Source of the DNA: Pedosphaera parvula Ellin514
Lineage (GTDB): Bacteria > Verrucomicrobiota > Verrucomicrobiia > Limisphaerales > JADJPG01
Length of the DNA: 35,006 nucleotides
Direction: 5' to 3'
NCBI GenBank assembly: GCA_945872975.1
Contig: CAMCCU010000003.1
Span: 1-35,006 of the forward strand
Every line of letters starts with the position of its first letter. The stretch's first letter is position 1. Below, one piece after another: positions 6,542-11,065 of the stretch. The position numbers were made by a program, and so were the translations under genes. Under the pieces are notes generated by a model. It did not search any database, was not told where the DNA came from, and saw only the letters and a list, made by a program, of their open reading frames with translations.

Positions 6542-9454
6542 ATGAAAATCACCCCCTCACTCTTCTACTCTTATCTGAAGTGCCCGACCAAATGCTGGCT
6601 CCATGCGGCAGGCGAACAAACTCCAGGCACCAGCTACTCTGAATGGCTCCAGTCCCAGGACGCATCGTATCGCACCACGGCTACGAGCCGACTGAGGGCT
6701 GACACGCCGCCAGAAGTATGCACCGTCGATCCGCCAGCCGACACGCTGAAGACTGCCCAGTGGCAACTCGCGATGGATGTGACCGTGGCGTCCGAACCTC
6801 GTCGCAGCCAAGGTAACGAGGCTCAAGCTTCTCCCTCTCCGGCATCGACGCACGCCTCCAGAAACAATGATCAGAGCCTCCTCACGTCGGCTGCTACCAT
6901 CATCGAGTCATGCCTTCACGCCGTGGAGCGCATCCCGTCAGAAGGCCGAGGCAAGGCCGCTCAGTTCGTTCCGATCCGTTTCATCTTCCGTAACAAGCTC
7001 ACTACAGACGACAAGCTGCTGCTGGCGTTCGACGCGTTCGTGCTCTCCCAGACACTCGGACGCGAAGTCAGCTTCGGCAAAATCATCCACGGCGACGACG
7101 ATGCCACGGTCAAGGTGAAGACCTCGGCCCTGGCTGGCGAGGTGCGGAAGCGCTTGGAGAAAATCACCGCGCTGCTCTCCAGCGCCGCACCGCCTGACCT
7201 CGTCCTGAACCGGCACTGCGCCGAGTGCGAATTCCAGGCCCGCTGTCGGAAGATCGCGGTGGAGAAGGACGACCTCAGCCTGCTGGCCAGCATGAGCGCG
7301 AAGGAGCGCCAGAAACTCCGCAGCAAAGGCATCTTCACCGTCACGCAACTCTCCTACACGTTCCGTCCCCGCCGCCGGCCCAAGCGCCAGCGCGACAAAC
7401 GGGAGAAATATCACCACTCGCTCAAGGCGCTGGCGATTCGGGAGAAGAAGATCCACATCGTCGGCAGCCCGGAACTCAAGATCGAAGGCACGCCCGTCTA
7501 TCTGGATGTCGAGGGCCTGCCCGACCGCGATTTCTACTACCTCATCGGCCTGCGCATCGGCCACGGCGACTCCGCCGTCCAGCACAGCCTGTGGGCGGAC
7601 ACCGTCGCGGACGAAGGGAAGATTTGGCAGGAATTTCTCGCCATCCTCGAAACCGTCGAGAAGCCGGTGCTGATTCACTACGGGAGCTATGAGACGAACT
7701 TCATGAAGCAGATGGAAGATCGTCACGACAGTCCACAGGCTGAATCGGTCGCGGCAAAAGCAATCGCCTCGGCTCTCAATCTCGTCTCGGTGATGTTCGC
7801 CAAAACATATTTCCCCACTTTCTCGAACGGGCTGAAGGAGATTGCTGGTTGGTTGGGCTACCAGTGGGCCGAGAACAGCCCTTCAGGGTTGCGCTCGATT
7901 AGTTGGCGACACGAATGGGAACAGGCGAGAGAGGAGTCCTCAAAGCAAAACCTGCTTACATACAACTCAGATGACTGTGACGCGTTGGAACTGGTCGCCA
8001 ACGTTATCATGCAGATGAGCCTCCAACCTCCGCTATCAATGACCGACGCCCGTCCGGCTCTCGAAATTGCTCATGCGGATGCCTTGGCGTCGCAAGACAC
8101 GATGTGGCCGAAGTTCGCTAGTCCCATCGACGCCTTTGAATCCATAAACAAAGCCGGCCGCTGGGACTACCAACGCCACAAAGTTTACGTCCGAACCGAT
8201 CAAGAACTGAAGTGCGCCACCAAAGCCGTCAACATGCGGAGTAAGCGAATCGAGCGCGTCAGCAAAGATGTCCAACCCGATCCCGTGGAGGTTTGTCCAG
8301 AATGCCTCCAGAAAACCAAATACACCAAACGAAGAACCAAGACGCTTTACGATGTGCGCTTCACAGAGTGCGGAATCAGAGGTTGGGTGGTTAGGTATCA
8401 AATCAAGGGGCATCTCTGCCGCAATTGTCATCGGTGCTTCGGCACTCCCAAGGAATTTTGGCGGCACGGCAAGTATGGCCGAAATTTGGTTGCGTTTGTC
8501 GTGTTCCAGATGATCGAACTGTGTATCCCCCAGCGCACCGTCGGATACAGCATAAACAGACTGTTCCGACTTGGGCTGGGTCAAGCCGTCATTTATAGTT
8601 TTAAGGCCAGTGCTGCTCTGCGCTACGACGAAACACGGCAGAAGATCATGGCTGTAATGGTGAAAGGAAACCTGATTCACGCAGACGAAACACGAATCTT
8701 GATCAAAGGCAAAGCGGCATACGTCTGGGTCTTCGCGACGTTCCGTGAGGTGGTATATTTCTACTCGGAAACGCGCGAAGGTGATTTGCTTGAAAAGCTG
8801 ATGAAGGAATTCAAAGGCGTTTTGGTGTCCGACTTTTATGCGGCGTACGACTCCATGCCGTGCGCGCAGCAAAAGTGCCTCATCCACTTGATGCGCGACC
8901 TCAACGACGCGGTGCTCGACCATCCATTCGACGAGGAGGTCCGGGGAATCGTGACGAAGTTTGCCGAGATTCTCAGAAGCATCGTGGCGACGATAGACCG
9001 GCGAGGTCTCAAGCGCCACTTTCTCCGAAAACACGGCCTAGAAGTCGAACGCTTTTACCGGCACATGCGGCGCACCACTTACCAGAGCGAAGCCGCATTG
9101 AAGTGCAAGGAACGATTCGAGAAGAATCGAGAAACGCTTTTCACTTTCTTGAACCATGATGGTGTGCCTTGGAACAACAACAACGTGGAACACGCCATCA
9201 AAGCATTCGCCAGGTTGCGTCGGGCAATCGAAGGGTTATCCACGCCGAAAGGCATTGAGGAATACCTGATTCTCTTGAGCGTCTGCCAAACCTGCAAATA
9301 CATGGGCGTGGACTTTCTGGATTTCCTCCGTTCGGGTGAGAAGGACATTCACGCCTTCGCGGAGAGCCGGCGTAAGCGCAAGCGCCGGTCACAAACCAGC
9401 CCGCCGCCCGCCTTGCCGCCGAACACAACCCCGGACAGCGAGGGGCAACCTTAA
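6542..9454 (+). CDS. Fusion protein: RecB/Cas4-like plus RNase H-like nuclease (TM0106 type) joined to an IS66-type DDE transposase
   Basis: The 970-aa open frame has two halves. Residues 1-500 resemble the TM0106/RecB-like putative nucleases. C14/C18 (YLKCPTKCW) and C226-x2-C229-x5-C235 (HCAECEFQARC) match the one-plus-three cysteine pattern of Cas4/AddB iron-sulfur nucleases. An RNase H-like exonuclease domain follows, with YLDVEGLPDRDFYYLIG (320-336) and LLTYNSDDCDALELV (471-485). Residues ~520-970 are an IS66-type transposase: zinc finger C585/C588 and C626/C629, then DDE residues D715 (HADET), D764 (SDFYAAYD) and E883 (NNNNVEHAIKAFARLRRAIEG), with a basic tail. No stop or frameshift separates the halves. 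Residues about 86-119 are encoded by an inserted REP-like palindrome. I found no terminal inverted repeats, so mobility is uncertain. Composition looks less GC-rich after about base 7740. Confidence 0.85.
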   Translation: MKITPSLFYSYLKCPTKCWLHAAGEQTPGTSYSEWLQSQDASYRTTATSRLRADTPPEVCTVDPPADTLKTAQWQLAMDVTVASEPRRSQGNEAQASPSPASTHASRNNDQSLLTSAATIIESCLHAVERIPSEGRGKAAQFVPIRFIFRNKLTTDDKLLLAFDAFVLSQTLGREVSFGKIIHGDDDATVKVKTSALAGEVRKRLEKITALLSSAAPPDLVLNRHCAECEFQARCRKIAVEKDDLSLLASMSAKERQKLRSKGIFTVTQLSYTFRPRRRPKRQRDKREKYHHSLKALAIREKKIHIVGSPELKIEGTPVYLDVEGLPDRDFYYLIGLRIGHGDSAVQHSLWADTVADEGKIWQEFLAILETVEKPVLIHYGSYETNFMKQMEDRHDSPQAESVAAKAIASALNLVSVMFAKTYFPTFSNGLKEIAGWLGYQWAENSPSGLRSISWRHEWEQAREESSKQNLLTYNSDDCDALELVANVIMQMSLQPPLSMTDARPALEIAHADALASQDTMWPKFASPIDAFESINKAGRWDYQRHKVYVRTDQELKCATKAVNMRSKRIERVSKDVQPDPVEVCPECLQKTKYTKRRTKTLYDVRFTECGIRGWVVRYQIKGHLCRNCHRCFGTPKEFWRHGKYGRNLVAFVVFQMIELCIPQRTVGYSINRLFRLGLGQAVIYSFKASAALRYDETRQKIMAVMVKGNLIHADETRILIKGKAAYVWVFATFREVVYFYSETREGDLLEKLMKEFKGVLVSDFYAAYDSMPCAQQKCLIHLMRDLNDAVLDHPFDEEVRGIVTKFAEILRSIVATIDRRGLKRHFLRKHGLEVERFYRHMRRTTYQSEAALKCKERFEKNRETLFTFLNHDGVPWNNNNVEHAIKAFARLRRAIEGLSTPKGIEEYLILLSVCQTCKYMGVDFLDFLRSGEKDIHAFAESRRKRKRRSQTSPPPALPPNTTPDSEGQP
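6797..6898. repeat. REP-like palindromic element, copy A (inside the nuclease-transposase coding sequence)
   Basis: The 24-base inverted arms are 6801-6824 (GTCGCAGCC...GAGGCTC) and 6874-6897 (GAGCCTCC...GGCTGCTAC), with 5 mismatches between arms. They are separated by a 49-base spacer. The element is read through in frame and encodes roughly residues 86-119 of the fusion protein (a segment rich in Ser, Ala, Pro, Asn and Gln). Total arm-to-arm length is 97 bases, identical to copy B, and the spacers are visibly homologous (about 36 of 49 positions match). Confidence 0.85.
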
Positions 9455-9665: not shown

Positions 9666-10247
9666 ATGAATGAACCCGACTCCAACCGTGCGTTCTATCT
9701 TCCCCGCCTGCCGCGCGAATATTATCAGGGCGACGCGGTGGTTCACTGGACGCTTCCCATTTCGCACCGTCGACGCGGCTGGCTGGACGAACGGTTTCAC
9801 GCCGCGTTCCGTGAACTGCTGCTGCACACCGCCGCGCGCGAGGGACTATTCTGCCCGCCGTATTGCCTCATGACGGATCATCTTCATCTGGTCTGGATGT
9901 GCTTGCGTCTGGATTCCGACCAGCGCAACGGCATGGCCTTCCTGCGCACGCATCTCGAACCGAAACTCGCGCCGCAGAAGTTCCAGCATCAGGCGCATGA
10001 CCATGTGCTCAAACCGGAGGAGCGCCGCCACAACGCGTTTGCCCGCACCTGTCACTACCTTCTCGAAAACCCGATCCAAGCAGAACTCGTGAAGCACCCG
10101 AACGAGTGGCCGTTCAACGGGGCGGTCATCCCCGGCTACCCGACGCTGCATCCGCTTCAGGACGATTTCTGGCCGAAGTTCTGGAGGCTCTACACGGCAG
10201 CAAAGTCGCCGAACGCAGGAAAGATTCTCCGCCCGCCCATCACGTAG
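9666..10247 (+). CDS. REP-associated tyrosine transposase (RAYT; Y1/HUH superfamily)
   Basis: The 193-aa protein starts at ATG 9666; an upstream extension in the same frame runs through two REP copies and is rejected. The HUH metal-binding motif is LMTDHLHLVW with His72 and His74. The candidate catalytic tyrosine is Tyr131 in RTCHYLLENPIQAELV, matching the family's Y-x-x-x-NP-x-x-A-x-LV motif. Such single-strand endonucleases cleave and mobilise REP palindromes and are normally flanked by them, as here (copy C before, copy D after). The TAG stop lies inside copy D. The N-terminal FYLPRLPREYYQGDAVVHWTLP is typical of the family. It is likely domesticated or self-limiting rather than an autonomous insertion sequence. 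Confidence 0.9.
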   Translation: MNEPDSNRAFYLPRLPREYYQGDAVVHWTLPISHRRRGWLDERFHAAFRELLLHTAAREGLFCPPYCLMTDHLHLVWMCLRLDSDQRNGMAFLRTHLEPKLAPQKFQHQAHDHVLKPEERRHNAFARTCHYLLENPIQAELVKHPNEWPFNGAVIPGYPTLHPLQDDFWPKFWRLYTAAKSPNAGKILRPPIT

Positions 10248-10326
10248 CAGCCGACGTGAGGAGGCTCAAGCTGATCGGGCCGCATCCTCGCGAAGGAGAT
10301 TTGAGCCTCCTTACGTCGGCTGCTAC
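10244..10326. repeat. REP-like palindromic element, copy D (overlaps the end of the REP transposase gene)
   Basis: The inverted arms are 10244-10267 (GTAGCAGCCGACG...GAGGCTC) and 10303-10326 (GAGCCTCC...GGCTGCTAC), differing at one arm position, with a 35-base spacer. The first arm supplies the TAG stop codon (10245-10247) of the transposase gene. The element ends 4 bases before the stop codon of the argG fragment on the other strand. Confidence 0.88.
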
Positions 10327-10330
10327 GAAA

Positions 10331-10463: not shown

Positions 10464-10838
10464 CTACGTTGTCGGCTCATGTGGGCGGAAACGGACGCGC
10501 CAAGATTCCACGATGGCCAGCCGTCCGGCCAATCGTGCCAGAAGTTCCGGCTTGCTCACAAATGACCGCAAGACCTGGTTCACCTGCGCGGCAACAGCGT
10601 CGTCGGGGAGTTCCAGCACAATGATGCCGGCATAATCCTTCGGCGGATAATTGCGGATGTCGGCAAAATCAAAGTCGCGGGTGATGAGGGTGAGTTGCCG
10701 GGCTATGGCGTAGGCGGCAACAGTGGCGTCGTCCGCTCCGTTCGGGAGAACATCCCGGACATCTTCGACGTCGTGACTCAGATCGCGCAACAGGCTGCCT
10801 GAGGAGCGAGGCATGTTGGCATCGAGCAGGAATCTCAT
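10464..10838 (-). CDS. DUF5615-family PIN-like toxin
   Basis: The 124-aa protein begins MRFLLDANMP, the start typical of DUF5615 (Mut7-C/PIN-like) proteins. Acidic residues in PIN-type positions are Asp6, Asp36/Asp37 (GADDATVAAYA) and Asp55/Asp57 (TRDFDFADIRNYPP), consistent with a metal-dependent ribonuclease core. GIIVLELPDDA and the Arg-rich tail also fit. Its ATG overlaps the stop of the upstream DUF433 gene by one base (TGATG), the usual coupling of antitoxin before toxin. By family precedent it is the RNase toxin of a type II module. No RNA target can be inferred. It lies between the argG fragment and intact argG. Confidence 0.88.
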   Translation of the reverse strand: MRFLLDANMPRSSGSLLRDLSHDVEDVRDVLPNGADDATVAAYAIARQLTLITRDFDFADIRNYPPKDYAGIIVLELPDDAVAAQVNQVLRSFVSKPELLARLAGRLAIVESWRVRFRPHEPTT

Positions 10839-11065
10839 CAGGTCGCCGTGCCGAGCGGATGATGTTCTTCTTGCTCCACCAACTCACCGGCAAACTTGAG
10901 TGCGGCGCGGATTTGGACGCGGGTCAAACTGTATTCGCGTTCCACCTCCTCGAAGCCCATGCCGCCGGCCAGGCTGCCGACAATCAATGAGACAGGCATC
11001 CGCGTGCCCCGAATGACCGGTTTTCCGTGGCAGATGGTTGGGTCAATCACGATCTGGTCGTTCAT
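10838..11065 (-). CDS. DUF433-family antitoxin
   Basis: This 75-aa protein has the DUF433 signature: IVIDPTICHGKPVIRGTRMPVSLIVGSLAGG at the N-terminus, then EEVEREYSLTRVQIRAALKFAGEL. The fold is a small helix-turn-helix-like domain found as the antitoxin partner of DUF5615 toxins. It precedes the toxin in the operon with a one-base overlap. Only 44 bases separate it from the end of argG, which is upstream on the same strand, so the pair may have its own promoter in that gap or be read through from argG. It probably binds both the toxin and its own promoter, as is usual for such modules (inference). Confidence 0.9.
   Translation of the reverse strand: MNDQIVIDPTICHGKPVIRGTRMPVSLIVGSLAGGMGFEEVEREYSLTRVQIRAALKFAGELVEQEEHHPLGTAT

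Follow-up and report, generated by a model that had tools for sequence, protein, structure and literature searches.

The window, a 35,006-nucleotide stretch of the Pedosphaera parvula Ellin514 assembly, contains at positions 6542-9454 a reading frame that is open across all 970 codons, as the original prediction had stated (Table 1). Profile searches and fold matches agree on the domains of both halves, and the initial assignment of these domains is therefore retained. In Pfam, the protein matches Cas_Cas4 at residues 152-235 (29.1 bits, cut-off 22.7), RNase_H_2 (PF13482) at 319-488 (E = 1e-18), and DDE_Tnp_IS66 (PF03050) at 643-906 (E = 7e-32). In NCBIfam, the profile of the TM0106 RecB-like nucleases (TIGR03491) spans residues 6-487 (190 bits, cut-off 97), and the IS66 profile NF033517 spans residues 570-930 with 177.6 bits, just below its cut-off of 180. 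The predicted model has a pLDDT of 74.8 and a pTM of 0.43, the latter meaning that the placement of the domains relative to each other is unsure; in this model, the N-terminal half matches type I-C Cas4 (E = 3e-5) and the transposase half matches the ISCth4 transposase (E = 1e-8).

Table 1. Features of the fusion gene and of the DNA downstream of it (positions in the window)
Feature	Position	Strand	Basis or remark
Fusion gene, 970 aa: degenerate Cas4/RecB-like part, DEDD-like exonuclease, and IS66-type DDE transposase	6542..9454	+	frame, profiles, alignment
Cas4/RecB-like domain, codons 1-236; Fe-S-type C14, C226, C229, C235; E-x-K absent	6542..7249	+	
In-frame REP-type insertion, codons 86-119	6797..6898	+	pLDDT ~34 (low model confidence)
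Constant 5' block, codons ~217-385	7190..7696	+	
RNase_H_2/DEDD-like exonuclease domain, codons 319-488 (D322, E324, Y474, D478)	7496..8005	+	profile, alignment
Exchanged cassette, codons 385-911 (remaining exonuclease and transposase)	7694..9274	+	
Zinc-ribbon cysteines C585..C629 of the IS66-type half	8294..8428	+	alignment
DDE_Tnp_IS66 domain (D715, D764, E883); ISCth4 transposase-like fold	8468..9259	+	profile, alignment, fold
Constant 3' block, codons 912-970	9275..9454	+	solo form adjoins toxin-antitoxin genes in other genomes
47-nt core common to solo and gene-borne 3' ends	9327..9373	+	single copy in the window's genome
REP-type repeats directly past the fusion stop codon	9455..9650		
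Likely REP-associated tyrosine (Y1) transposase gene	9666..10247	+	NF047646, E = 1e-10, below cut-off
DUF5615 (PIN-like), toxin-type partner	10464..10838	-	
DUF433, antitoxin-type partner	10850..11065	-	

The gene sits in the chromosomal backbone. A DJ-1/PfpI gene lies upstream; downstream are the likely REP transposase gene, the DUF433/DUF5615 pair, and the gene for argininosuccinate synthase, followed at a greater distance by those for EF-G and rpoC. The neighboring frames tested (DJ-1/PfpI, the REP-associated transposase, and DUF433/DUF5615) include neither TnpA nor TnpB of IS66, in agreement with what had been noted for this locus. REP-type repeats are also present at positions 10240-10330, around the likely RAYT gene. 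The DUF433/DUF5615 pair (10464-11065, opposite strand to the fusion) is related to the pair that separates 3'-end copies of the fusion gene in other genomes.

The conservation of individual residues was read from an alignment of 22 full-length or near-full-length homologues from several phyla. Because these sequences align end to end, an error at the junction of the two halves can be ruled out, and the fused family, with its active-site residues kept, is genuine. The exonuclease residues D322, E324, Y474, and D478, together with N475, and the zinc-ribbon cysteines C585, C626, and C629 are invariant or nearly so; D715 and D764 are invariant and E883 is nearly so. The exonuclease-like domain, the IS66 zinc finger, and the DDE triad of the original prediction are thus upheld, and by this alignment both the exonuclease and the transposase sites look intact. 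The proposed cysteine set stands in part: the Fe-S-type residues C14, C226, C229, and C235 are invariant, whereas some homologues have Y, S, or A in place of C18. The designation of the N-terminal part as a Cas4-type nuclease has to be dropped, since the PD-(D/E)-x-K motif is missing. The 22 sequences contain no conserved column of D or E-x-K in the Cas4-like part, and the E-x-K of 'PVEYK' in a solved Cas4 (8d3l) aligns to 'PIRFI' in the family profile, a weak match (E = 0.03) in which the cysteines fix the placement. Replacement of the E-x-K throughout the family indicates that the Cas4-like part is probably a DNA-binding domain, and nuclease activity, if any, would then reside in the RNase_H_2 domain. 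With the Fe-S cysteines alone left, trimming of ends by the Cas4-like part is unsupported, and any such trimming would have to be done by the exonuclease domain.

When one genome per species was scanned by pattern, 31 loci emerged, mostly with both halves. Full-length homologues of the fusion that keep the catalytic residues were found in Verrucomicrobiota, Acidobacteriota, Kiritimatiellota, Proteobacteria (including an isolate of Bradyrhizobium), and a Thermoplasmatota archaeon. The fusion is also present on two plasmids of cyanobacteria, where its annotations are 'TM0106 family RecB-like putative nuclease' (the Acaryochloris copy) and 'transposase IS66, putative'. Databases thus name the protein after either half, which explains why the fusion has been overlooked; ordinary IS66 proteins are only 20-26% identical to it. 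The fragmented assembly of the window's genome, judged 76% complete, contains one copy, and other genomes usually contain one to three. A phage origin was considered and set aside, as neither INPHARED nor IMG/VR contained a match. A literature search covering few subscription journals returned nothing on the TM0106 nuclease and nothing relevant on an IS66-Cas4 fusion or on non-integron toxin-antitoxin cassettes, and a phylogenomic study of Cas4 mentions neither transposases nor IS66 (PMC5704561). On the evidence of its homologues, the fusion is a real and widespread protein that moves between unrelated microbes.

The gene itself is a mosaic. At four-fold degenerate sites, 11 copies of the Verrucomicrobial set show 62-89% identity over codons 120-385, ~30% over codons 385-900, and 54% over codons 900-940. 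Across families of the host's order, DNA identity amounts to 87-97% at codons ~217-385 and ~912-940; codons 385-911 are saturated, and their closest relatives belong to other phyla. The 5' change-point falls at codons 375-394 in 69 of 78 pairs, with DNA identity dropping from ~0.9 to 0.5, and the 3' change-point falls at codons 910-917 in 30 of 36 pairs, with identity rising from 0.6 to 0.95. The 5' boundary lies within the exonuclease domain and therefore is not a simple domain border. The closest relative of the window's cassette comes from Acidobacteriota, and other cassettes pair with those of Opitutaceae, Betaproteobacteria, Kiritimatiellota, and Bradyrhizobium. In the tree of cassettes, a single clade of the chassis copies, i.e. 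those bearing the constant blocks, is rejected (AU p 1.9e-66; at least nine label changes), whereas in the tree of constant blocks it is not (p 0.26; two label changes). Paralogues within one genome have a 90% common N-terminal part and a divergent middle, and five copies (the window, L004, L010, L016, and L034) have the REP insertion at codons 86-119 despite their differing cassettes. These profiles and trees show that codons 385-911 have been repeatedly replaced by divergent versions between constant 5' and 3' blocks.

In some copies, the constant blocks enclose IS630-type transposases, an ankyrin protein, or a VapBC pair in the opposite orientation rather than an IS66-type middle. A weak match to a 5'-3' exonuclease was seen beside an IS630-type transposase between constant blocks (L123:3939-4769). 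Other copies contain a second IS66 subtype that terminates at a stop codon of its own and is followed by the constant 3' end as a leftover. About 0.7 kb downstream of one such subtype-B hybrid and its leftover 3' end, there is a tyrosine recombinase gene, a frame of 337 codons (L126:2611-3621, genome G075); as a general partner of the fusion, a tyrosine recombinase was discarded, being present at few loci only. The chassis copies derive from assembled metagenomes, and individual hybrids could be wrong. Chimeric assembly as the source of the mosaics was rejected by argument: each divergent cassette would have had to possess a chassis-like N block beforehand, and mis-joining could shuffle only copies that already bear the constant blocks, and thus does not explain the pattern.

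Among 320 genomes that represent the order, the constant 5' block turned up in 23, at 76-95% nucleotide identity (mostly 89-95%). The recA genes of the same genomes are 75-83% identical to that of the window's genome, and this control rules out vertical descent as the cause of the identity of the block. The block has thus spread horizontally, and recently relative to its hosts; the comparison with recA shows that DNA of the fusion gene was transferred between families of the order.

The lack of terminal inverted repeats, noted originally for this locus, was confirmed in ~35 loci, where nothing exceeded shuffled controls except REP repeats and chance-level matches. The ends are resolved only for two cyanobacterial copies on complete plasmids. 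Plasmid5 of Aulosira laxa NIES-50 contains an internally deleted copy of the fusion gene of Calothrix PCC 7716, and the two have in common exactly GTCATGAGT...AAGAGAACG(T/A)AG and nothing beyond, the common start being GTCATGAGTACCGAAATTATCATTA and the common end AAATTTAAGAGAACG(T/A)AG. As identity stops at these ends, the unit there consists of the reading frame plus ~3 bp. Its ends are not inverted repeats, and no target duplication, such as the 8-bp one of IS66 elements, was recognized at either copy. In Calothrix NIES-4101, the gene upstream of the fusion is likewise present but the fusion itself is missing, and homology stops a few bases before GTCATG; no clean empty site for the element was found. 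Close to the Aulosira solo copy are genes for a PIN-domain protein and a tyrosine recombinase. A small cyanobacterial plasmid gene that precedes the Calothrix PCC 7716 fusion recurs near integrase genes in other plasmids (L196:3063-3617, L195:5000-5572, L054:5149-5688). In other lineages, the shared DNA starts further upstream, by about 25 to 113 bp. At L013:1889-2100 (L067), a fusion gene has apparently been inserted into codon ~188 of another copy, with the left junction (G)GCGTTTGACC ~95 bp before its ATG and the right junction beyond the contig.

The constant 3' end also occurs alone, with up to four such ends in series on one contig. A 28-nt core pattern has 39 matches in 24 of 320 genomes, at most five per genome, and its reversed control has none. 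Toxin-antitoxin genes lie between the 3'-end copies: DUF433-DUF5615 in four genomes, MazF in three, and ParDE in two. They recur in different genomes, in differing order and combination, and are mostly oriented like the fusion gene. As read off alignments, with events that are not all independent, the starts of 24 of 25 solo ends fall in codons 912-936, with unrelated DNA adjoining them, and four are exactly at TG|AGC. Such clustering, in ~25 of 550 codons, would be very unlikely under uniform truncation, and the boundary at codon ~912 coincides with the 3' boundary of the exchanged cassette. Solo cores have lost coding constraint, and constraint at the DNA level was not clearly shown for them. 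A hairpin that seemed likely by eye was rejected: folding gave no common structure for the 3' core, its two arms showed no co-variation across the cores compared, and Rfam contains no match. Integrons were also ruled out as the explanation of the arrays. Although an integron integrase scored above the cut-off in 8 of 13 genomes tested, 3'-end repeats were not found near these integrases, and a scan for attC sites (RYYYAAC...GTTRRRY hairpins), which recovers four from the positive control L188, detected none in eight array loci. The latter (G003:C66) is a genuine integron with canonical attC sites, and the same genome, G003, also holds a 3'-end array. The leftover 3' ends beside toxin-antitoxin genes suggest an undescribed kind of mobile gene cassette.

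We consider it probable that the fusion is the single gene of a horizontally spreading, low-copy mobile element that lacks terminal inverted repeats and exchanges its transposase module. In such an element, the DDE domain would cut and join the ends, one of which would lie at the gene's 3' end; DNA binding would fall to the Cas4-like domain, and the exonuclease would trim or remove a strand. The middle would be exchanged by recombination, homologous or enzyme-driven, within the constant blocks, and 3'-end copies next to cargo, for example toxin-antitoxin modules, could be the remains of abortive or one-ended events. The failure to find inverted repeats, target duplications, or a clean empty site speaks against a mobile element, and so does the low copy number, unlike that of an active insertion sequence. 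Low copy number, together with the conserved active sites, the Cas4-type matches in a defence library, and the toxin-antitoxin neighbors, would suit a domesticated DNA-repair or defence protein. This possibility, raised in the original prediction, is nevertheless improbable, given the patchy distribution (23 of 320 genomes) at unrelated locations with unrelated flanks, the DNA similarity between families far above that of recA, and the internally deleted copies with defined ends. REP/RAYT elements could also drive the rearrangements, the fusion gene being merely their frequent target. Several homologues tolerate in-frame REP insertions, at the same or other sites, and REP-RAYT DNA lies directly downstream of the fusion in the window, L004, L010, L034, and partly L018. 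However, a downstream RAYT is missing from many of the mosaic or array copies, no REP sequences were noticed at the cyanobacterial solo 3' end, and we regard this scenario as very improbable.

Two further readings are sub-models of the exchange itself, and both are compatible with the mobile element preferred here. The simplest route is homologous recombination within the constant blocks. If it acted alone, copies living in shared populations would recombine through their conserved stretches, old copies would fragment, and toxin-antitoxin genes would arrive by chance or by their own mobility. No new enzyme is required, identity peaks beside both boundaries as expected from repeated flank exchange, and the solo 3' ends, among fragments whose left edges vary widely, resemble decaying relics. 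Still, uniform decay would scatter the starts of relics that are in fact clustered, the junctions with the IS630 transposase, the ankyrin gene, and ParDE DNA are not homologous, and between 3' ends the DUF433 cassette recurs in four genomes and the MazF cassette in three; recombination and decay as the entire explanation is plausible, with somewhat less than an even chance. The clustered junctions and recurrent cassettes suggest enzyme-driven recombination at the 3' end. In an integron-like system of this kind, the 3' end (~100-215 bp) would be the recombination site, the fusion would be the recombinase, and toxin-antitoxin genes with a copy of the site would be the cassettes. The same cassettes in varying order in different genomes, the serial 3' ends, the shared boundary with the exchanged middle, and the absence of attC are consistent with this proposal. 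Against it stand the small number of core copies per genome, the lack of coding or clear DNA-level constraint on solo cores, the folding results, and the fact that no precise insertion of a single cassette was caught, and we consider it rather unlikely. The complete version, in which an exonuclease-fused DDE transposase with its own 3' site builds arrays of toxin-antitoxin and other genes and swaps its own transposase half at that site, is a doubtful proposal.

Several known systems resemble parts of the fusion. IS66 TnpC (NF033517, DDE_Tnp_IS66) is alike in the DDE domain, the zinc ribbon, and the profile match, but the fusion has an additional Cas4-like/exonuclease part of 500 residues and lacks inverted repeats and adjoining TnpA and TnpB; the ISBst12 subgroup of IS66 is also devoid of tnpA and tnpB. 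The N-terminal half matches the full length of the TM0106 profile (TIGR03491), and differs from that family in the C-terminal transposase and the loss of the Cas4-type catalytic motif. Cas4 of CRISPR adaptation complexes (PDB 8d3l) has a similar fold and Fe-S cysteine pattern; however, the fusion has no catalytic E-x-K, and no CRISPR proteins were noticed at the loci examined. The closest solved fold of the DDE half is the transposase of ISCth4 from the IS256 family (PDB 6xgx). Elements of the IS256 type have terminal inverted repeats and are not known to carry a fused nuclease. The arrays resemble those of integrons in their serial toxin-antitoxin cassettes, repeated separator, and order varying by genome, but here the separator derives from a DDE transposase gene, whose 3' end it is, rather than being attC, and the integrases of the same genomes lie elsewhere.

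Neither the swapping of the transposase half nor the recurrence of the 3' end was part of the original prediction. Transposases are usually viewed as units inherited together with their ends. Here, a transposase module is swapped across phyla, with junctions inside a protein domain, while the nuclease start and the end of the gene stay constant on either side of it. If only homologous recombination is responsible, the family is still a clean natural case of modular transposase evolution. If the 3' end is a recombination site, it would provide bacteria with a second, DDE-based route to arrays of toxin-antitoxin cassettes, a new cassette system in which the work of the integron would be done by different enzymes.
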